Of a DNA stretch of 35,934 bases, positions 6,142 to 16,743 are shown one piece after another (positions within the stretch are counted from its first letter, which is position 1; every line of letters begins with the position of its first letter). Under the pieces are notes generated by a model. The model ran no database searches. It was not told where the DNA came from and saw nothing but the letters and a program-made list of their open reading frames with translations. This DNA is from Sphingobacteriia bacterium (GTDB lineage: Bacteria > Bacteroidota > Bacteroidia > NS11-12g > UBA9320): the NCBI GenBank assembly GCA_008080835.1, contig VMDK01000001.1:1-35934 (forward strand). The letters are read 5' to 3'. Position numbers and translations under genes: made by a program.

Positions 6142-6171
6142 AGCCGGCGACTGATAGTTGTCGGCTTTTTT
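6142..6171 (+). terminator. Rho-independent terminator of the M13 peptidase gene
   Basis: Stem AGCCGGCGAC (6142-6151), loop TGATA, complementary arm GTTGTCGGCT (6157-6166) with two G-U pairs, followed by a run of T to 6171. It also overlaps the 3' end of the convergent gene. Confidence 0.85.
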
Positions 6172-7651
6172 ATTGAATATAGTAGATAAAATAAGTCCCT
6201 CGCTGAAGTATCAGATCCATCCCCTGCTTGTTCAATTCTTTCGTAGCTAGGATGTGCGTGATGCCATTTCCTCTGAGATTATCTAACCGGGTGACATCCA
6301 GCTTGTGGTAGTAATGATTAGCCTGAAAAAACTGGTGGAAACCGGATGCCTGGACGTCAAAGTCTCCGTAGACCAATGTTAGTCTATCATACCACTTATC
6401 CATGAATTTTGGATAGTGTAGTATCGATTTGAAAGAGACGAATAAAGGAGCATGAGAGGCGAACTGGAAACCAGTGATATGAATTGGCTGAATGACCAAG
6501 TGTTCTTTGCTTCCCATCTCCTTTCTGAAATCGTGACCGATCTGTACAAGGTCCGGATCGGTTGAATTCGTGTATGAGAAATTACCCGGCTGCATCCACA
6601 GCGCACCACATGCAAGGAGAGTGACAACGATTAACGAAAGGGTCGTCCAACGGTCGAGCAACTCTACTCGGATCTTATTCATGAACGATACCAGAGCAAT
6701 CCCAAACCACAAACGGATCCAAATGCTGGATTTAAACCACTGTGTTTTGGCGATCAACTCCGCTTCGAACACCTCAACACCAAGCCAGTAAATCGCCATG
6801 CCTACCAAGGTCACACCCAGCCATGCGACAATACCCTTGTGCCTTTTGAACATCCAAGCAGTCAACAGGAACATTGCAACCATTAAGACCATATCCATAA
6901 GCGGAAATTGGGATGGCAAGTAGTGATGTGGGTTTCGAAATCGGAACATCAGGTCAAAGTAGGAATGGACTCCTTCTCCTCCCGATTTCAACATGAACAA
7001 TCCTGTCAGAACACCTACACCAATGACCGAATTGACCAAGGCCAACACGGAGGATCTACTTCTCAGTGAATGCGAATCGCTGAACATCCAATACGCGATC
7101 ACAAGCACAAGCGCTTGAATCCCCACGAGAGGATGAAATAATGTGCAAACTATGAGTATAAGCGGGAGCCATGCATATCTCTTGGATACTACTATGTATA
7201 GAGCGAGAACAGCGAATAGCAATCCTAATGACTCACTGATAAAATGGGCACTGTATAGATCATTCGCCCCGGGAGAATGAGCGTAGAACGCAAAGACTAC
7301 CACAAGTGGCAAGAAGAAATTCCAGTTTGATGATAAGAAGCTGTCTCCAATTCGGATGATCAAGACGAACATGGCCAGGTAGACGAGCAGGTGTGAAATA
7401 AAAAATGCCAGCGGTAGCAATGACTCACTAAATAAAGACATGAGTTCCACAAAGGCGGTCCTGACTGACCATTCTCCACCGGAAGAAGCGATCAAAAAAT
7501 CCGTGCTCAGCCCGGTATTTCCTTGAGCATACAGTATCTGACCCAGAACTTCCTCCTGGTCGCCATCACCAAAATGGTAACTAATTCGCCACACCAGCGC
7601 CGAATAACACGCAATAGCTGCCAGGAGATATTTATACCAATTCGATCTCAC
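6170..7651 (-). CDS. Multi-pass membrane protein of unknown function
   Basis: 493 residues with an N-terminal membrane anchor and roughly ten further hydrophobic segments up to about residue 350, then a soluble C-terminal part of about 130 residues. The first loop carries an acidic cluster, FGDGDQEEVLGQ (27-38), followed by a long extracytoplasmic loop and HSPGANDLYSAHFISE. This layout resembles GT-C-fold glycosyltransferases (acidic motif in the first loop, many helices, soluble tail), but I cannot assign a family and the similarity is an inference. The soluble tail includes THILATKELNKQG. No operon partner: the next minus-strand gene upstream ends at 7878, 227 bases away. The stop overlaps the convergent terminator of the M13 gene. 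Confidence 0.75.
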   Translation of the reverse strand: MRSNWYKYLLAAIACYSALVWRISYHFGDGDQEEVLGQILYAQGNTGLSTDFLIASSGGEWSVRTAFVELMSLFSESLLPLAFFISHLLVYLAMFVLIIRIGDSFLSSNWNFFLPLVVVFAFYAHSPGANDLYSAHFISESLGLLFAVLALYIVVSKRYAWLPLILIVCTLFHPLVGIQALVLVIAYWMFSDSHSLRSRSSVLALVNSVIGVGVLTGLFMLKSGGEGVHSYFDLMFRFRNPHHYLPSQFPLMDMVLMVAMFLLTAWMFKRHKGIVAWLGVTLVGMAIYWLGVEVFEAELIAKTQWFKSSIWIRLWFGIALVSFMNKIRVELLDRWTTLSLIVVTLLACGALWMQPGNFSYTNSTDPDLVQIGHDFRKEMGSKEHLVIQPIHITGFQFASHAPLFVSFKSILHYPKFMDKWYDRLTLVYGDFDVQASGFHQFFQANHYYHKLDVTRLDNLRGNGITHILATKELNKQGMDLILQRGTYFIYYIQ

Positions 7652-7877: not shown

Positions 7878-7979
7878 TCAATGCCAACGCTGAATACCTG
7901 CCGGAATGCTCAATTCGAGATGATTCTCCTTCGGTGGTATCGGACAAGAAAAACGATAATTATATGGGCAATACGGATT

Positions 7980-8113
7980 ATAACGGTTTGCAGCTACCCG
8001 AAGGTGGCGATTTCGAAGCACTTCATTGTCAATTTAGCACCATAGTTAATTAGAAGCACAAAAATTAAAATAACCCACAACCGCCCCACTTGCGGGTAGG
8101 TGCGGTTATGGGC
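7980..8113 (-). other. attC-like recombination site of the cassette
   Basis: Read on the minus strand: R'' box GCCCATAAC (8113-8105), L'' arm CACCTACCCGCAAG (8102-8089), a variable central part of about 85 bases, L' arm CTTCGGGTAGCTG (8003-7991), spacer CAAACC, and R' box G^TTAT (7984-7980). L'' and L' pair except for one mismatch and one extra base, like the extrahelical bases of attC. The unpaired spacer between R and L arms is asymmetric (CG against GGTTTG), as in known sites. GTGG/CCAC and CG-rich arms extend the stem inward. In the integrated form only the five bases GTTAT pair with R''; the circular form would restore nine. The GTTATGG core departs from the textbook GTTRRRY. Confidence 0.8.
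8074..8112 (-). terminator. Possible intrinsic terminator overlapping the attC 5' half
   Basis: On the minus strand CCCATAACCGC (8112-8102) can pair with GCGGTTGTGGG (8084-8074), with one G-U pair, followed by a T-rich TTATTTTAATTTTTG. It would end transcription of the cassette gene 14 bases after its stop. It competes with the attC fold because both use the R'' box. Confidence 0.55.
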
Positions 8114-8125
8114 TGGTTTTGATTA

Positions 8126-8896
8126 TTAATTTTCTTCTCTCTTTCTAATTGCAAGTGGAATAGCAAATTTTGGTAAAAATGAGATTAGATTAGTTGCCAG
8201 TTTCAAAATGTAATTATAGATTTCCTTGTATATATAAAATGCGATAAGCAAAAGAAATGATCCTGCTATACTCATAACTCCTATTTTAATGTAATCTCCA
8301 AAATTGTCATAATCTCCAACAATTTGTTGAGGAGCTAATCCGCTGAATATCTCCATTCCTGGAAAAATACTTAGTAACAATGCAGGGTATTCACTTAATG
8401 GTGCATACACAAAAGAACCCACTAGCGCAGCAAAGATTTGAAGTATACCTGCGTATAAAAACAACACGAACAGTAATTCACCTATTACCAAAATTAATTT
8501 CGGTAAGGTTTTTACAAAAACAAAGGATAACAAACCGTCATATTCGATGGTTTTCATTTGTTCTGTTCGCTTTTTTAAGACACTAAATAAAGCCCAAGCG
8601 GTTAAAATGCTAATTGCGAAGCCAAGGATTAGACCAACAACAGCTCCCGCTTTTTTGCCACCACTTAAATACTCGCTTGAAATGTAGCTTTTCACAAAGC
8701 CGGAATCTCCAAACAATCCATCAATACTGAGATAAATTCCGCCTAGCAGAAGACCAACAGCTAAAATAGAAAGTAAAAGTGTAATAATGTTTTTAAAAAC
8801 ATTTCCATCATCTAGTCTTCCTAAAAAAGGAATAACTAATTTGTTGTAGCCTTTATCAGCTATCGATAAGGATACGAAAGGTAAATTTTTTTCCAT
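8126..8896 (-). CDS. Cassette-borne multi-pass membrane protein of unknown function
   Basis: 256 residues. An N-terminal cytoplasmic stretch (MEKNLPFVSLSIADKGYNK) is followed by about five hydrophobic segments (near 36-58, 85-107, 130-160, 168-185 and 205-228), with charged loops such as LKKRTEQMKT between them and a basic tail ending RKREEN. I recognise no family. Codon use is AT-rich, unlike the genes on both sides. It is the only gene of the cassette-like segment, in the same direction as the operon it interrupts, so it may be read both from the operon and from its own promoter. Its stop lies 12 bases before the attC core box, as usual for cassettes. Possible roles, such as a phage-defence effector or a transporter accessory, are not shown by the sequence. 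Confidence 0.8.
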   Translation of the reverse strand: MEKNLPFVSLSIADKGYNKLVIPFLGRLDDGNVFKNIITLLLSILAVGLLLGGIYLSIDGLFGDSGFVKSYISSEYLSGGKKAGAVVGLILGFAISILTAWALFSVLKKRTEQMKTIEYDGLLSFVFVKTLPKLILVIGELLFVLFLYAGILQIFAALVGSFVYAPLSEYPALLLSIFPGMEIFSGLAPQQIVGDYDNFGDYIKIGVMSIAGSFLLLIAFYIYKEIYNYILKLATNLISFLPKFAIPLAIRKREEN

Positions 8897-8992
8897 TTTT
8901 TAAAAATTAAAGTTTCCTACTCTTGCGGCTTTTCGGATTTCGCCCCGTTTTTTATAGTGGCTTCTGGACTCCACCTTTGCTTTTCAATTTTA

Positions 8993-9017
8993 CAAAATAA
9001 TTTTTAAAAACTATCAA
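8993..9017 (-). promoter_or_regulatory. Possible cassette promoter
   Basis: Minus strand TTG at 9017-9015, then 15 bases, then TATTTTG at 8999-8993, close to the Bacteroidota -33 TTG / -7 TAnnTTTG pair but one base short in the -7 box. It lies within the unusually long (about 178-base) leader of the cassette. Confidence 0.35.
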
Positions 9018-9570
9018 AGTTGTCCCCTGGTGGTTCTCTTGTTTGTCCGCTATGTCTGTTTAACTTGCCCATAACTGAGGTTAAAATCGACCCAGACCCA
9101 TTTGGACATTTCCTTTAAATGAAAATCCAGATACCGCCCTCCACCATAACTCTGCAGGTGTTTACTGCTATCAATGAACGGACAAAATAGTCCATCGTAC
9201 TCCGGATGCTTCTTCAGATAATCCAGATTTTGATAGAGCGTCAGCTTGTGCTTCGAATCACCGAGAGTGAACTTCAATATACCGTATCGACGATACAGAG
9301 GTGTTCGCTCCGTCGAAGTGGCCATCCAAAACTTCTTCTTGAAGATCAACTTCCGGAACTTGGCTTTGACTTTATATGACTCGTCGATGTTGTAGTAGTT
9401 CAGCCCATAAAAGAGCTTGAGATCTTCTTCTAGCAGGATCGATTTCGCACTATCAGCAAATATCCTATCAATACTGTCGCGGTAGTTCTGGACCTTCAAT
9501 GCATACGGCGACATGGATTGAGCGATCGTGAAGATCGGAGTGAACATGACTGCCAGCAATACCAATCGTA

Positions 9571-10341
9571 TCATAGTTCATCCTCCACTTTATACAGGTT
9601 CCTCAAAAGGAAACTCAACCCAATGGATGCATACCAGTCGGGAGCCTCACGCGACATTCCAATTCCCACACCTAGATCGAACTGAAGGTCCTTTTTCCAT
9701 TCCCAGGTGCTACCAAGATCCAAAGCTTGGAAGTATTGAAGGTCATTTCTCGACCCGTACATCTCTGCGAACAAAGCGAAATTGGATTCCCCATAGGTGA
9801 TCTTGAAAGTCCAGTTCAAGGTGGTTTGCTCCATCTGCCACCAATCCAGGTTCAACATATAGGATATGGAAAAATTAGGATCAACCTGATGATGGAAGAT
9901 CAGACCCATATCAGGCCTTAGGGACCCTGAATCAGTTGGAATTCGGACGTGTGAGCTGAAGGCGATGCTTGGAATCACATCGTATGCGGATAGTATCTCT
10001 GTTTTCAGACCGAACCGAGGGTCCTGAATGAAGACTGGGGAACTGGCTCTGGCACCATTCTCAGTGAACGTCTGGTTCACCCCTCCTAACAACCTGAGTT
10101 CAGTGCGCTCAAATGCTCCGAAACGCAATGCACTGGTATTCCAATTCACGTGAGAAACTGAACTGCCGGGAACGCGTCCTGTATTGATGAACATCCCCGT
10201 CTCAAACTGCAACCCCGCTTGTTCTACTGTGTTGTATGCATCGGTAAATCCGGGACGATCCGTATTTAAGGGTTTATTCTGACTAAATCCTGCCGCCGAA
10301 AGGAGCATGCACAAATAGAAAGCAACTGTTCTTCGCATCAT
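9571..10341 (-). CDS. Outer-membrane beta-barrel-type protein, similar to the MetA phenol-degradation family
   Basis: 256 residues from the ATG at 10341 (an upstream GTG would place seven extra residues before the signal peptide). Signal peptide MMRRTVAFYLCMLLSAAGFSQ, then NTDRPGFTDAYNTVEQAGLQFETG, the characteristic opening of the transporter family named for phenol-degradation MetA (PF13557-like). The rest alternates in amphipathic strands with aromatic ends (LRLLGGVNQTF, LNWTFKITYGESNFALFAEMYG) and ends in barrel-like LDLGVGIGM and WYASIGLSFLL. It is likely an outer-membrane barrel; the substrate is unknown, and in Bacteroidota the family name does not imply phenol catabolism. It lies 27 bases after the radical SAM gene and overlaps the DUF1684 start by 4 bases, so it belongs to the dnaE operon. 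Confidence 0.7.
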   Translation of the reverse strand: MMRRTVAFYLCMLLSAAGFSQNKPLNTDRPGFTDAYNTVEQAGLQFETGMFINTGRVPGSSVSHVNWNTSALRFGAFERTELRLLGGVNQTFTENGARASSPVFIQDPRFGLKTEILSAYDVIPSIAFSSHVRIPTDSGSLRPDMGLIFHHQVDPNFSISYMLNLDWWQMEQTTLNWTFKITYGESNFALFAEMYGSRNDLQYFQALDLGSTWEWKKDLQFDLGVGIGMSREAPDWYASIGLSFLLRNLYKVEDEL

Positions 10342-11433: not shown

Positions 11434-14400
11434 GGGCGGTTCTCTTTTGATGTGGCCATTCTCTGTTTCTTCGCCTTCATGAGCATTTGCTGTTCATAGA
11501 CCGATATATCTGCATACCTCGGATCCTGTATCACCGGAAGCATGTGCATCTCTCGTACCTCGATGGAAACGGCACCAAACTCCTCTACAACCTTCCCCGT
11601 GACCCGATAAACTCCCTTACCTCGAAATGGGAACTTCTCCGTTACCGGTGGAAAATGAACGGTATCCAGAAATGCCCCGTTCCGGTCGAGAAACGTACCA
11701 AAGTACATTCGCTCCCCTTTGGAAGTATTTGTTTTCTTGACATGGATCAGATACCCTGTGACCGTTGCTTCGCGACCTGCATGTTTCAAAAGCTCTCCGG
11801 CCGATATTCCGGCATCCGTCTGCTCCCGCAAAAGCATGAACGGATTGCACAACGGAAATCCGAGCAATTCCATTTGGTCGAAAGCGTCCTCATACTTCTC
11901 TGTGAGAAGGGTCGGGAGCTGATACTCCTTGGGTTTCGGTTCAAAAAGAGTCGGCATGAGCTTCTTCTTCGGCTTGTGCCCCAGCAGTAAATGAGCCTTC
12001 CACAGCAGTGCTTTTTTTGAGAGACCGGTAAAGCGAAAAGCTCCTGCACGGATCAGCAAAACCAGCTGCTCCAGACTGATCGCGACGCGCGAAATGAACT
12101 CATTGAGCGAATGAAACTCCCCTTGCATCTTTTTGCTGTGCAGAAGACATTCCATGGCGGTATGCTCGAACCCGCGTATACGATGAAACCCAAGATAGAT
12201 CGTCTTCCCCTCGATGCGGGAAAGGGCACCGCTTTTGTTCACGCAAGGTTCCTCGACCGCCGCACCACAAAGCCGAGCCTCGTTCAGATAAAGCTCCGGA
12301 CTGTAGAACCCTCCCCCATTATTGATCGTGGCCACCATATACTCCCTCGGATAGTAGGCTTTGAGGAACAAGCTCTGATAACTCTCCACCGCATACGACG
12401 CCGAATGTCCTTTTGCAAAAGCATAACCGGCAAAGCTCTCTACCTGTCGCCATACCTCTGCGGTCAGCTCCTTCGTATGTCCCTTCTCCACACAGTTGCT
12501 GAAGAATTTATCCTTGACCCGGGCGAATTCCTCCCTGGAGCGGAATTTTCCGCTCATCCCACGACGAAGGACATCGGCTTCTGCCAGACTCAACCCCGCG
12601 AAGTAGTGCGCTACCTTGATCACATCTTCCTGATATACCATCACCCCGAACGTGTCGGGCATGATCTGCATCATCACATCGTCCTCCGGTGGACGACGCT
12701 TCGGGTCCCGAAAGCGCAGTATATACTCCCGCATCATCCCCGACCGGGCCACTCCCGGACGTATCACCGAACTCGCGGCGACCAACCCCAGATAGTCCTG
12801 TACCCGCAACTTTTGCAGCAGCATACGCATGGCCGGTGATTCCACGTAAAAACAACCGATCGCCTTACCCTCACGTAAATGCTCCTTAATCTTCGGGTCA
12901 GACCGGAATCGCTTCATGTCGTGTATGTCGATCGCCTCCGAATCGGGGTGATTGCTACGAATGATCTCCAGCGTATCCTTGATCTTACCCAGTCCGCGCT
13001 GACTCAGAATATCAAACTTGTACAAACCCACATCCTCCGCCGTGATCATGTCGAAATGCGTGGTCGGAAAGCCCTTCGGAGGCAGGAAGGTCGCGGTGTA
13101 CCGATGTATGGGTTCTTCAGATATCAGAATACCCCCGGCATGTATGCTCAAATGACTCGGGAGGTCCTGTATATGGCGACTATACTTGATCACGAGTTGT
13201 GATAGTTCATCGAGCTTGGTGAACGAGAAACGGCCACTACTGAGCATGTCGATCTCGCGCTTGGGCAAGCCAAATACTTTTCCCAACTCCCGGATGGTGG
13301 CCCGGAATTGAAAGGTGCTGTAGGTAGCCAAAAGACTCACGTTCGGAAAGCGATCGAATATGTAATTGGTCACGTCATCACGATCGGCCCAGGAGAAATC
13401 AATGTCGAAATCGGGCGGGTTCTTCCGGTAAAGATTGATGAAGCGCTCAAAGAACAGGTCGAGGTCGATCGGATCCACGTCCGTGATGCGGAGTATGTAG
13501 GCCACGATGCTGTTTGCTCCACTGCCACGTCCCACATAGAAATAACCCTTGCTCCGAGCATAACGTACAATGTCCCAACTGATCAAAAAGTAGGATACGA
13601 AACCCTTCTTGCTGATGATGTCGATCTCCTTCTCCAGACGCTCAAGCAACTCGTCATCCGGATGCGGATACCGGTAGCTGAGCCCTTCCGTACACAAGAT
13701 GCGAAGCAACTCCAGATCATCCTCCGCCGACCCGGTATAGGTCTGCTGATTCTTGTGCTCCATGTCGTCCCCGAAATCGAAGTCGAACTCACACATGTTC
13801 AGCACGCGCTCCGATCGCTCAAGCAGATCCGGCCATTCGCGATATACCTCCAGCATTTGTTCCGGGGAAAGAAATGCACAGTTCGGCGATGATTGCTCGG
13901 AAACGGCCAACTTACTCAACAAAACATTGTTGTCGATCGCACGGAGTAACCGGTGCGTATTGTAGTCACGCTTATTGCGAAACGTACCGGTATTGAACGC
14001 CAGCAAGCGATCCGGCAACACATCACCCGAAGAAAAGCGCAGTCGATTCAGATCCTCCGGTGCCACACCGAGGTATTCATTATGCCTCAGGACCGCCCCC
14101 TCATAACTGTGATATGGATAGATGACCACGGCATGCTCAAACATCGGAGCACGATCGGGGATCGGAATGCCTTGATGAAGATGACCCGACAAATACCGAT
14201 TGATCTCCATGAAACCATCGTTGTTGAGTGCCAATGCCACAAAACACTGTCGGGCACCATTTCGGAAATCAATTCCCAGGACCGGAGCAATGTCTCTGCG
14301 CTGCGCCAACCGGACGAACTCCATGCAGGCTGATGTGTTGTTGATATCCGTCAGCGCCATACGCTCAACACCCCACTGCGCAGCCATGTCAAGGATCTCT

Positions 14401-14456
14401 TTCGGCGAAAGTATCCCGTATTTCAAACTGTAGCAGCTGTGGTTGTTCAAGTACAT
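11430..14456 (-). CDS. dnaE: DNA polymerase III alpha subunit, error-prone (DnaE2/ImuC-like) type
   Basis: 1008 residues, shorter than replicative DnaE (about 1160). An N-terminal PHP domain (1-200) starts MYLNNHSCYSLKYG; the HxH metal motif reads N4-x-H6, so the first His is lost and PHP exonuclease activity is unlikely. The C-family polymerase core has GRGSGANS (309-316), catalytic aspartates in PDFDIDF (Asp349/351/353) and Asp482 in YKFDILSQRGLG. A helix-hairpin-helix region follows near 840, and an OB fold near 905-985 (EATVTGYLIHVKK). It lacks the C-terminal clamp-loader-binding tail of replicative DnaE. Length and the PHP change fit the accessory polymerase used for mutagenic lesion bypass. 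It is first in an operon with the radical SAM gene (4-base overlap). No ImuA/ImuB or Y-family polymerase is in the window. Confidence 0.9.
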   Translation of the reverse strand: MYLNNHSCYSLKYGILSPKEILDMAAQWGVERMALTDINNTSACMEFVRLAQRRDIAPVLGIDFRNGARQCFVALALNNDGFMEINRYLSGHLHQGIPIPDRAPMFEHAVVIYPYHSYEGAVLRHNEYLGVAPEDLNRLRFSSGDVLPDRLLAFNTGTFRNKRDYNTHRLLRAIDNNVLLSKLAVSEQSSPNCAFLSPEQMLEVYREWPDLLERSERVLNMCEFDFDFGDDMEHKNQQTYTGSAEDDLELLRILCTEGLSYRYPHPDDELLERLEKEIDIISKKGFVSYFLISWDIVRYARSKGYFYVGRGSGANSIVAYILRITDVDPIDLDLFFERFINLYRKNPPDFDIDFSWADRDDVTNYIFDRFPNVSLLATYSTFQFRATIRELGKVFGLPKREIDMLSSGRFSFTKLDELSQLVIKYSRHIQDLPSHLSIHAGGILISEEPIHRYTATFLPPKGFPTTHFDMITAEDVGLYKFDILSQRGLGKIKDTLEIIRSNHPDSEAIDIHDMKRFRSDPKIKEHLREGKAIGCFYVESPAMRMLLQKLRVQDYLGLVAASSVIRPGVARSGMMREYILRFRDPKRRPPEDDVMMQIMPDTFGVMVYQEDVIKVAHYFAGLSLAEADVLRRGMSGKFRSREEFARVKDKFFSNCVEKGHTKELTAEVWRQVESFAGYAFAKGHSASYAVESYQSLFLKAYYPREYMVATINNGGGFYSPELYLNEARLCGAAVEEPCVNKSGALSRIEGKTIYLGFHRIRGFEHTAMECLLHSKKMQGEFHSLNEFISRVAISLEQLVLLIRAGAFRFTGLSKKALLWKAHLLLGHKPKKKLMPTLFEPKPKEYQLPTLLTEKYEDAFDQMELLGFPLCNPFMLLREQTDAGISAGELLKHAGREATVTGYLIHVKKTNTSKGERMYFGTFLDRNGAFLDTVHFPPVTEKFPFRGKGVYRVTGKVVEEFGAVSIEVREMHMLPVIQDPRYADISVYEQQMLMKAKKQRMATSKENRP

Positions 14457-14474
14457 TTTTCAGCAAAAGGGCAT

Positions 14475-14482
14475 CAAATATA
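14475..14482 (-). promoter_or_regulatory. -7 promoter element of the dnaE operon
   Basis: Minus-strand TATATTTG, a perfect match to the Bacteroidota -7 consensus TAnnTTTG, 18 bases upstream of the dnaE ATG. A clear -33 TTG is not seen at the usual distance, which fits a promoter depending on or blocked by a regulator. Confidence 0.6.
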
Positions 14483-14483
14483 T

Positions 14484-14500
14484 TGCTAATATTTTTAGCA
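14484..14500. promoter_or_regulatory. Candidate operator of the dnaE operon
   Basis: Perfect inverted repeat TGCTAA-N5-TTAGCA, one base upstream of the -7 box and filling the space towards -33. A dimeric repressor bound here would block RNA polymerase. It is not the proteobacterial or Bacillus LexA box; the damage-response regulator is only an inference from the gene it controls. Confidence 0.55.
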
Positions 14501-14843
14501 TTCTAATTTTTTACTTTTATTTGCTTTGTGATTATGGATTTAGCTGAGCTCTCAATTACTACAAACACAAGGGTGCCGCGTCCAGATCAAAGGAATAAGC
14601 GTATTGTATTGCACTCACCAGAGGACTGTCACAGGTAACTGTCTGTGAATCAGTGTTACGACGCGCTGCAGAAGGCGGTGCGCGCTGGCAGGAGAGTGCG
14701 AGTGGCGGGTTGAGCGAATTGGGGTTTGGCCGGCTGGTGAGGGGCTGGTGGTGCGACAGGCCAAACGAAGTGCTTATCGCACTCTCGGATCTTTTTGCTT
14801 CTTTTTGTATCAAGACAAAAAGAAGAGTATAATATAAAAGCCA
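14501..14843. other. Intergenic region, GC-rich element and 10-bp inverted repeat
   Basis: No gene is supported between dnaE and the SRAP gene. Bases about 14655-14770 are much richer in G and C than their surroundings, and are bounded on the right by CTTTTTG and the perfect inverted repeat CTTCTTTTTG (14798-14807) / CAAAAAGAAG (14816-14825) with an 8-base loop. A long minus-strand reading frame across this part overlaps the SRAP start and has no recognisable domain, so I treat it as chance. The organisation recalls dispersed intergenic elements of Bacteroidota genomes, from memory only. The repeat ends 18 bases before the SRAP ATG and could also act in its expression. Confidence 0.5.
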
Positions 14844-15653
14844 ATGTGTGGACGTTACGTAGTCGTAAGTGAACTCAAAGAGATCGAGAAGAAATTCAAC
14901 GTGAAAACGGATCAACCCGAGCAATTCGGGATGAATTTCAATATCGGTCCGGGATCCCTGGCGCCTATCATCAGTTCGGCGAAACCCGATGTGCTGCAGT
15001 TCTCACAATTCGGACTCACACCATTCTGGGCCAAGAAGAAAATGTACCTCTTCAATGCCCGAAGCGAAGGGGATCACAACAAGGAAGACGACCCCAGATA
15101 TACGGGAGCACGAGGCATCATCACTAAGCCTGCATTTCGCAAACCCATACGCTCCAAAAGATGTCTGGTTGTTGCTGATTGCTTCTACGAGGGTCCCAAG
15201 AAAGAACGACTGAGCAAACCCTTTCTCGTCTATCTACAAAAAGGGAAAAGACCCTTTGCCTTTGCAGGGATCTACGACGAATGGGTGGACCAGGAAACAG
15301 GCGAGGTATCAACCGGGCATAGCATCATCACCACCGTGTCCAACAGTCTTACGCAGAAGATCGGACACCATCGCTCACCGGTCATACTTAAAGAGTCCGA
15401 CTACAGCACATGGCTCAACCTCGACACCCCACTTGAAGGGGTCACAACTTTGCTCGAGCCATATCCGGGAAAAGAAATGAATGCGTATCCCGTTTCCACC
15501 CGTATGAAAAATCCACGTGAAAACGACAAAGATCTGTTACTCCCCGTAGGTGAACGAGTCACGAAAGAATTCGACTACGAAATACACCGCAGCCTCAAGC
15601 TCTTTGGGATGGGCCAGTCCCCCGCAAGGAACCGACGCTTGAATGAAGAATGA
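14844..15653 (+). CDS. yedK: SRAP-family abasic-site DNA-protein crosslink protein (YedK/HMCES-like)
   Basis: 269 residues. The protein begins MCGRY, so after methionine removal Cys2 becomes the N-terminal nucleophile that bonds covalently to abasic sites in single-stranded DNA. Other family positions are present: NARSE (71-75), CFYE with Glu116, and HxRSPVIL with His175. The family protects abasic sites at stalled forks and is often associated with the SOS response. It lies divergent to the dnaE operon across a 387-base region, which fits a shared DNA-damage context. Its stop is one base from the stop of the convergent desaturase gene. The start is fixed by the need for Cys at position 2. 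Confidence 0.93.
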   Translation: MCGRYVVVSELKEIEKKFNVKTDQPEQFGMNFNIGPGSLAPIISSAKPDVLQFSQFGLTPFWAKKKMYLFNARSEGDHNKEDDPRYTGARGIITKPAFRKPIRSKRCLVVADCFYEGPKKERLSKPFLVYLQKGKRPFAFAGIYDEWVDQETGEVSTGHSIITTVSNSLTQKIGHHRSPVILKESDYSTWLNLDTPLEGVTTLLEPYPGKEMNAYPVSTRMKNPRENDKDLLLPVGERVTKEFDYEIHRSLKLFGMGQSPARNRRLNEE

Positions 15654-15654
15654 T

Positions 15655-16743
15655 CTACTGACGTCCGAGACGATACAGCATCTTCCCGTGGTACTTCAAT
15701 GCCGAGCGGAATGTGCTGAAGGAATTATAAGGCAGATTGAACTCCTGAGCCGTCTTTTTGACGATCTCTGAGATCTCCCGGTAATGCACATGGCAAATGG
15801 TCGGGAACAAGTGGTGTTCGATCTGATAATTCAAGCCTCCCACAAACCAGGAGAAGATCCGCTTCTTCGGTGCAAAGTTGGATGTGGTGCGCAACTGATG
15901 CTCCGCCCATGAGGTCTCGATCGTTTCGTTCTCCTCGGGATTCAGGAAGTCAGACTCCGGTAAAACGTGTGCAGGTTGGAAGATACACGCCAAACTGAAT
16001 CCGGCTACGAAATGCATCAACAGATAGCCCAATACGATCTGCCACCAAGCAAATGGCAACACGATCAGTGGTACTACCAATGTGATGATATAGTAGAATA
16101 TCTTGGACAAGACCATACGCGTCATCAACGTCCCGAATCCTTTCTTGATGGATTTCGTCAACCCTTTCCGGTTGTATCTGGTCATCTGAAGGAAGTCCTT
16201 GAACGTTGACCAGAACATGGTCATCATACCGTAGAAGAACCAAGCGTACAAGAACTGAAGTCTGTGAACTGGACGCAGTTTTTCATTCGGAGAGAACCTC
16301 AGAAAAGGAGCCGTCTGAATATCCTCATCGAGATCTTGGATATTCGTGTAGGTATGATGCAGTACATTGTGCTGGATCTTCCAATTGTTGTCGTCACCTC
16401 CGACCAAAATGATCAAGGCACCGAGCATTTTGTTTACCGTAGGATTCTCGCTGTATGCTCCATGATTGGCGTCATGCATGATCGACAAACCTATACCCGA
16501 CATTCCGAATCCCATGATGACCCAGATCAACATCATGACCCAGACATTTGTCAGACCAAGTGTCAACATCAGTGTATAAGGTACAAGGTATAGTGCGATC
16601 ATGAAAACGGTCTTGAAGACCATTCGACCATCCGCGTGTTTGGAGATATTGTTCTCCTTGAAATACTCGTGAACACGAAGCTTAACCGTGCTATAGAAAT
16701 CGTTCGCCGTTGGGCGAGCAAAGCGTACTTTTTTAATATCCAT
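15655..16743 (-). CDS. Membrane fatty acid desaturase (front-end, acyl-lipid/acyl-CoA type)
   Basis: 362 residues with four hydrophobic segments in two pairs (about 45-85 and 210-255). The three histidine boxes that hold the di-iron centre are HDANH (90-94), HNVLHH (125-130) and QIEHH (307-311); the Gln in the last box marks front-end desaturases such as delta-6 enzymes. No cytochrome b5 domain is fused, so an external electron donor is needed. It introduces a double bond into membrane acyl chains; the position cannot be read from sequence. It is transcribed alone, with a good -7 box upstream. Confidence 0.92.
   Translation of the reverse strand: MDIKKVRFARPTANDFYSTVKLRVHEYFKENNISKHADGRMVFKTVFMIALYLVPYTLMLTLGLTNVWVMMLIWVIMGFGMSGIGLSIMHDANHGAYSENPTVNKMLGALIILVGGDDNNWKIQHNVLHHTYTNIQDLDEDIQTAPFLRFSPNEKLRPVHRLQFLYAWFFYGMMTMFWSTFKDFLQMTRYNRKGLTKSIKKGFGTLMTRMVLSKIFYYIITLVVPLIVLPFAWWQIVLGYLLMHFVAGFSLACIFQPAHVLPESDFLNPEENETIETSWAEHQLRTTSNFAPKKRIFSWFVGGLNYQIEHHLFPTICHVHYREISEIVKKTAQEFNLPYNSFSTFRSALKYHGKMLYRLGRQ

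Follow-up and report, generated by a model that had tools for sequence, protein, structure and literature searches.

In the 35,934-bp stretch of DNA analyzed here (the window; contig VMDK01000001.1 of assembly GCA_008080835.1, from a Sphingobacteriia bacterium of the phylum Bacteroidota), a single mobile gene cassette has cut a chromosomal DUF1684 gene in two. We consider it about 90% probable that this cassette belongs to a gene-capture system widespread in Bacteroidota that is laid out like an integron but appears to use a different enzyme and different recombination sites. The initial annotation had described a 1091-bp AT-rich segment that splits a DUF1684 frame and can be excised exactly at two GTT boundaries, and this observation is confirmed. 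Its interpretation, capture of a single integron-type cassette at a secondary GTT site of a Bacteroidota chromosome without a nearby integrase, is only partly supported: secondary-site capture and the lack of an integrase in that assembly hold, whereas "integron-type," in the sense of IntI plus a standard attC, does not find support. Below, L and G numbers are our serial designations for the retrieved loci and genomes, respectively.

The insert occupies positions 7984 to 9074, with its sense strand on the minus strand, and has a GC content of 35.2%, against 46.2% in the flanks taken. The DUF1684 gene, also on the minus strand, is broken after residue 167-168. Its 5' part lies at 9075 to 9574 (the present open reading frame runs on to 9050; Pfam ID PF07920, E value of 1e-22), whereas the severed 3' part, with the NPYC...SCPIPPKEN motif and the original stop codon, lies at 7878 to 7983. 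Removal of the insert restores a frame of 201 residues. On its own, this frame test is weak, as 5% of 300 nearby random rejoinings give a frame as long, and the weight therefore lies on the comparison with relatives and on the score of the hairpin site. A search for intact copies of the gene, which had been set as a test beforehand, used the DUF1684 frames of 29 relatives (the loci given for the best matches of 35 matching relatives). Of these, 28 span the junction and all 28 are uninterrupted there, in most cases with a motif of the form DFN..YNPYC.YN...SCP.PP.EN running across it, whereas the 29th (L029) is cut off by its contig before the junction. The severed 33-residue tail is identical to those 28 in 13 to 23 of 33 positions, from which we infer a recent insertion. 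A search of the genome contig collection for loci related to the DUF1684 part, and searches of viral contigs and plasmids for relatives of the gene carried by the insert, returned nothing. The 493-residue protein encoded next to the DUF1684 gene (6170 to 7651) shows only a subthreshold match to DUF6798.

Read on the minus strand, the insert starts with the box GTTATGGGC (9067 to 9075), which we read as G|TTATGGGC, taking the G as target and TT onwards as cassette; the cut inside GTT is inferred. This box or its complement occurs just twice in the window, at 8105 and 9067. It is followed after 96 nt by a full-length match to the Rfam family RF03081 (DUF805 RNA) at 8910 to 8979 (74.2 bits against a gathering threshold of 51.1), which the initial annotation had missed and which is the only hit in its genome at an E value of ≤1. 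The cargo gene (8126 to 8896) encodes a 256-residue protein with four TM-like segments and no match in Pfam, NCBIfam, or PADLOC. It is 90% identical to a relative in G017 and 66% identical to one in G044, and the dN of 0.047 and dS of 0.483 against G017 indicate a selected gene; its predicted structure (pLDDT of 56) was too poor for a structure search. The insert ends with a 138-nt foldable attC-like site on the minus strand (7976 to 8113), which begins with GCCCATAAC and whose last 8 bases are target DNA. The bottom strand of this site folds better than all but 1 of 200 shuffles (z score of −2.74), whereas the leader region does not fold better than shuffles by energy alone. The sequence GTTAT stands at both ends of the insert.

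To see whether this site belongs to a family, we searched a collection of one genome per species for the pattern GCCCATAAC-N(100-130)-GTTATGGGC, which returned at least 80 stretches with 82 sites. Because about 116 chance matches are expected (18 fixed bases, 31 gap lengths, and 257 Gb of sequence), only sites with paired arms count. With an arm score of 8 or more and a spacer difference of 2 to 5, thresholds that were set after looking at the data, 40 of the 80 stretches look like one family; judging by their titles, 36 of these are from Bacteroidota, one is from Ignavibacteria, one is from an unclassified bacterium, and two (L086 and L132) come from other phyla and are doubtful. Of the other 40 stretches, 8 are from Bacteroidota, two of which (L135 and L136) were also taken into the family. 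The final alignment included 38 sites, chosen from the 82 pattern sites plus L038, L063, and L070, which are the same places as L121, L135, and L150. We left out L145, L114, and L120:2090 as near-copies or second sites; L086, L089, L132, and L156 as doubtful; and the perfect palindromes L109 (51 to 181) and L151 (1648 to 1780), which are probably assembly foldbacks. The rest looked like chance matches. A pattern search of viral contigs gave two hits, neither of which was taken into the family (L155 has unpaired arms and L156 has symmetric arms). Outside the box, which is invariant only because it was the query, the covariation score is 0.421, against 0.122 in shuffles (0 of 500 as high) and 0.06 to 0.10 when the partner is slid. 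All 16 inner-stem pairs show two-sided changes, but shuffles reach 15.3 on average, so this measure carries no weight alone. The site consists of a box, one unpaired base, an inner stem with mismatches, a long loop, the returning stem, five unpaired bases, and a second box, with structure conserved over sequence.

A covariance model of these sites (R1), trained on sites chosen by an exact box pattern, finds matches at an E value of ≤0.01 in 45 of 58 genomes (that of the window and 57 others of its family and order, three of which gave training sites), with up to 38 per genome, and, by construction, in all 36 genomes picked for a pattern match, with up to 90 per genome. The window's own genome contains exactly one site, the one in the window, which was not in the training set (match at 7980 to 8109, model positions 5 to 132, 87.9 bits, E value of 8.6e-21). 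In the 20 kb around each of six canonical IntI genes, R1 finds no site at an E value of ≤1.

The NCBI integron-integrase model (TIGR02249) reaches its cutoff in none of the 58 genomes, in a search in which no control genome gave a hit. In a separate search, the same model passed its cutoff in 5 of 6 proteobacterial genomes, which serve as positive controls, and in 1 of the 36 genomes with family sites (G068); another of these, the Ignavibacteria genome G077, has an IntI-like N-terminal fragment cut by its contig end (L170, 1447 to 1809) together with family sites. Instead, many of the 36 genomes encode a tyrosine recombinase that matches the first ~180 positions of that model at 108 to 135 bits. 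Six such proteins (364 to 583 codons) have the XerA-like NF040815 as their best or second-best NCBIfam match, over the cutoff in four of them, and keep the R, K, HxxR, H, and Y positions but lack the insertion present in the L160 IntI, which is the IntI-specific patch III domain. A profile built from five of them finds such proteins at an E value of ≤1e-60 in 26 of the 36 and 26 of the 58 genomes, but not in the window's own genome. Thus, 10 of the 36 genomes with pattern sites lack the recombinase at this threshold, and 45 of the 58 have sites but only 26 have the recombinase. The two genome sets share two assemblies (G079 is G015 and G083 is G044), so that one of the 67 listed recombinase matches is counted twice. 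Of these 67, 53 reach into an extra N-terminal domain (from profile position 32 or earlier), for which single members score weakly to HARP or DUF5710, mostly below the Pfam cutoffs, and whose predicted structure (mean pLDDT of 75, pTM of 0.49 for the model) shows strands and helices. Fourteen of the 67 have a stop codon in the matched stretch, some only at its end. The nearest solved structures are XerA (5hxy) and IntI4 (2a3v). In a quick tree, IntI forms one clade and joins these recombinases apart from two Xer-like proteins of the window's genome (98% support), although those branches are long and one short outlier (L257) falls inside.

Arrays of these sites lie next to this recombinase. We examined 20 of the 67 matches, chosen mostly for the length of their contigs, with up to 20 kb of surrounding sequence. 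All 14 with more than 2 kb of sequence after the gene contain an R1 site at an E value of ≤1e-3: in 12 the sites are strong, downstream, and on the same strand, whereas in L295 the hit is weak and in L303 it is weak and 5.6 kb upstream of the gene. The six windows whose contigs end within 1.4 kb of the gene (L300, L301, L304, L305, L306, and L308, five of them within 0.3 kb after the match) contain none; several listed R1 sites also lie at contig ends, as if the arrays break assemblies. Of 20 control windows around DUF1684 genes of relatives, one contains a site, a weak one (34 bits). At least three arrays (in G049, G046, and G057) are divergent from the recombinase gene. A named example is plasmid NZ_CP041688.1 of Chryseobacterium sp. 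SNU WT5 (L358), where the recombinase, annotated as "site-specific tyrosine recombinase/integron integrase," is followed by mostly codirectional genes, with R1 sites right behind a RidA gene and behind the next gene and two more near an IS110 transposase gene and a group II intron (RF02001) at 12272 to 16668; some IS110-type elements and group IIC introns target attC sites. However, the related C. oryzae plasmid gave no R1 hit, and plasmid H1 (L359) has the recombinase but no R1 hit. A shorter recombinase of the same broad XerA family is encoded on a Flagellimonas plasmid beside erm(F) (L360, 7986 to 8804), and matches to the C-terminal two-thirds occur on Acinetobacter and Klebsiella plasmids.

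The arrays obey the integron cassette rule, according to which the first box of a cassette's site pairs with the start of that same cassette and not with the start of the next one. From 157 R1 matches we used the 103 in loci with two or more sites, left out pairs over 3.5 kb, and dropped 7 for lack of an anchor; anchored on AAC and GTT, 59 neighboring pairs could be read, of which 46 were informative. Pairing with the cassette's own start is better in 43 and worse in 3, and it is 6 of 6 beyond GTT in 34, against 2 for the alternative. In the 29 pairs whose start box is not the query box, the count is 26 to 3, with 21 at 6 of 6. An unanchored version gave 40 to 9 with 2 ties. The box GTTATGGGC, as given in the initial annotation, is the commonest of many variants (30 of 59 cassette starts, after a search that favored it). 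The cassettes measure 381 to 3398 bp (median, 892 bp) in the pairs under 3.5 kb, and one contig of Flavobacterium sp. BFFFF1 (L078, 1 to 8000) has 11 sites in 8 kb, most of them with boxes different from GTTATGGGC. Used forwards, the first complete site of each of 12 arrays predicts the box at the array's start. This box is found at a 6/6 match 70 to 240 bp after the recombinase stop codon in 11 arrays, and at a 5/6 match at 27 bp in L299, where the second, complete site was used and a partial earlier one was passed over. This attI-like place is often preceded by an A/T-rich TATA-A stretch.

RF03081 is over its cutoff in 23 of the 58 genomes. Of 29 such loci from relatives, 11 have an R1 site within 1.5 kb at over 35 bits, on the same strand in all 11, and 18 have none over 35 bits. 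Where a start box can be read, the RNA begins 64 to 104 nt after it in 12 of 13 cases, as measured by hand (230 nt in L047). The head of the window cassette is identical in 133 of 174 nt to that of the first cassette of a Bacteroidales array that carries a different gene. We infer from this a traveling expression module, although only 3 hits occur in eight array loci, so that many cassettes lack it. The array of G017 (L070, 7385 to 8522) has a 230-nt exact duplication 600 bp apart and repeated cassette heads, with four DUF805 RNA hits there but only one R1 site in that genome.

Single off-array sites exist in several genomes. Of 20 windows picked because a site looked isolated, and thus not giving a rate, 14 have just one R1 site, and none of the 20 has the recombinase in a frame of 200 codons or more. 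A start box could be proposed for 8 of these 14, but none shows a clear spanning frame (one 73-codon stretch is reached by 18% of random joins). Disruption of a conserved gene, as in the window, therefore looks unusual in this small sample.

In our preferred reading, a XerA/IntI-related tyrosine recombinase that lacks the patch III insertion and often carries an extra N-terminal domain would cut within a GTT core and capture circular cassettes whose folded ~135-nt attC-like sites are recognized by structure. Its home platform would be the recombinase gene, then within about 70 to 240 bp an attI-like GTT(A/G) core, and then a tandem array of cassettes. In the window, one cassette with the DUF805 RNA leader at its head would have moved as a circle and been inserted into a GTTAT sequence of the DUF1684 gene by a recombinase now absent from the assembly (lost, on another replicon, or acting from elsewhere). 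The analysis directly demonstrates the insert, its junction, the empty sites in relatives, the site family and its covariation, the adjacency of recombinase and arrays, the cassette rule, and the box after the recombinase gene. In contrast, recombination and its catalysis, the strand that recombines, the exact cut, the agent that acted in this genome, the recency and route of entry of the insertion, and expression through the leader are all inferred, in part by analogy. A broader reading, which we regard as likely but less certain, is that Bacteroidota carry a second, largely unrecognized integron system: a sister lineage of IntI without patch III, often with its own N-terminal domain, its own attC class, and DUF805 leaders that travel with the cassette, present in a large share of the phylum and placing cassettes both in arrays and singly around chromosomes.

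The best surviving alternative, although unlikely, is an ordinary integron cassette inserted off target by a canonical IntI that is lost or located elsewhere. The GTT core, the single site per cassette, the cassette rule, and the attI-like box are all integron logic, off-target activity is documented for IntI (PMC10127599), genomic attG insertion sites were reportedly described in 2024, and reviews list Bacteroidota among phyla with integrons (PMC8618304, PMC9668308). One of the 36 site-bearing genomes does have IntI over the cutoff and one more has the contig-cut fragment. However, no IntI is over the cutoff in the 58 genomes, R1 finds nothing in six canonical integron windows, including that Bacteroidota one, the boxes do not follow GTTRRRY, and the arrays lie beside the other recombinase. 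It is even less likely that host Xer recombinases mobilize these cassettes, with the adjacent recombinase being incidental: by our reading, the window's genome has two Xer-like and one phage-type recombinase and nothing closer, but the 14/14 against 1/20 adjacency and the box just after the recombinase gene argue against this. Misassembly is similarly doubtful; the genome is a 149-contig assembly and several listed sites of this family lie at contig ends, but both junctions are at the predicted core and no other copy of the cassette exists in the assembly. A transposon or similar element with a hairpin end (IS200/IS605-like or a nonautonomous IS) is the least likely, because, despite the hairpin near one end, a 14-nt 86% inverted pair around the two boxes, and the GTTAT at both ends, which could be read as a 5-bp target duplication but is expected also for a cassette inserted at GTTAT, the insert has no transposase gene and its only long gene is the 256-residue cargo, without a family match, one arm of the inverted pair lies about 120 nt inside it, and elsewhere the same boxes and sites form arrays with different genes that obey the cassette rule.

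The IntegronFinder survey names a single complete integron in Bacteroidetes, in Salinibacter ruber (PMC9024848), published taxon-specific attC models for 11 taxa include none from Bacteroidota (PMC8352920), and IntegronFinder asks for the IntI-specific domain (PMC9668308). If the present reading holds, a major phylum has a common cassette-capture system that such criteria would pass over. This would make it testable whether patch III is needed to recombine folded sites, suggest a role for an orphan Rfam leader, and give a clean natural case of off-array gene disruption. A 2021 classification notes that the IntI insertion "is not fully conserved" in its integron-like subgroup (PMC8138268), so part of this recombinase family may already sit in such trees; as far as titles and the beginnings of abstracts show, our literature searches, which did not extend to preprints and most subscription papers, found no description of this system and none tying the recombinase to cassette arrays.

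Among known systems, the XerA-type recombinases (NF040815, "site-specific tyrosine recombinase/integron integrase") are close to the recombinase described here, which differs in often having an extra N-terminal domain and in the cassette array behind its gene; XerA acts on dif. The leader in the window is a full-length RF03081 DUF805 RNA, seen here as a cassette-head module. As in CALINs or single attC sites lacking an integrase, the window has an isolated cassette site without an integrase, but the site is of the Bacteroidota family and not one found around canonical IntI genes. With chromosomal integrons (IntI/attI/attC), the system shares tandem cassettes, a GTT core, one foldable palindromic site per cassette, pairing of R″ with the cassette's own start, and an insertion point next to the recombinase gene. 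It differs in that the recombinase lacks the IntI-specific domain and falls outside the IntI clade in the quick tree, the box is GTT(A/G)NNNNN rather than GTTRRRY (of 29 boxes other than GTTATGGGC, position 5 is a purine in 11 and position 6 in 14), the spacer has 1 against 5 unpaired bases, and in the 12 strong windows the array runs in the direction of the recombinase gene. The system is laid out like an integron, but by two defining features, the IntI domain and the canonical box, it is not a standard member.
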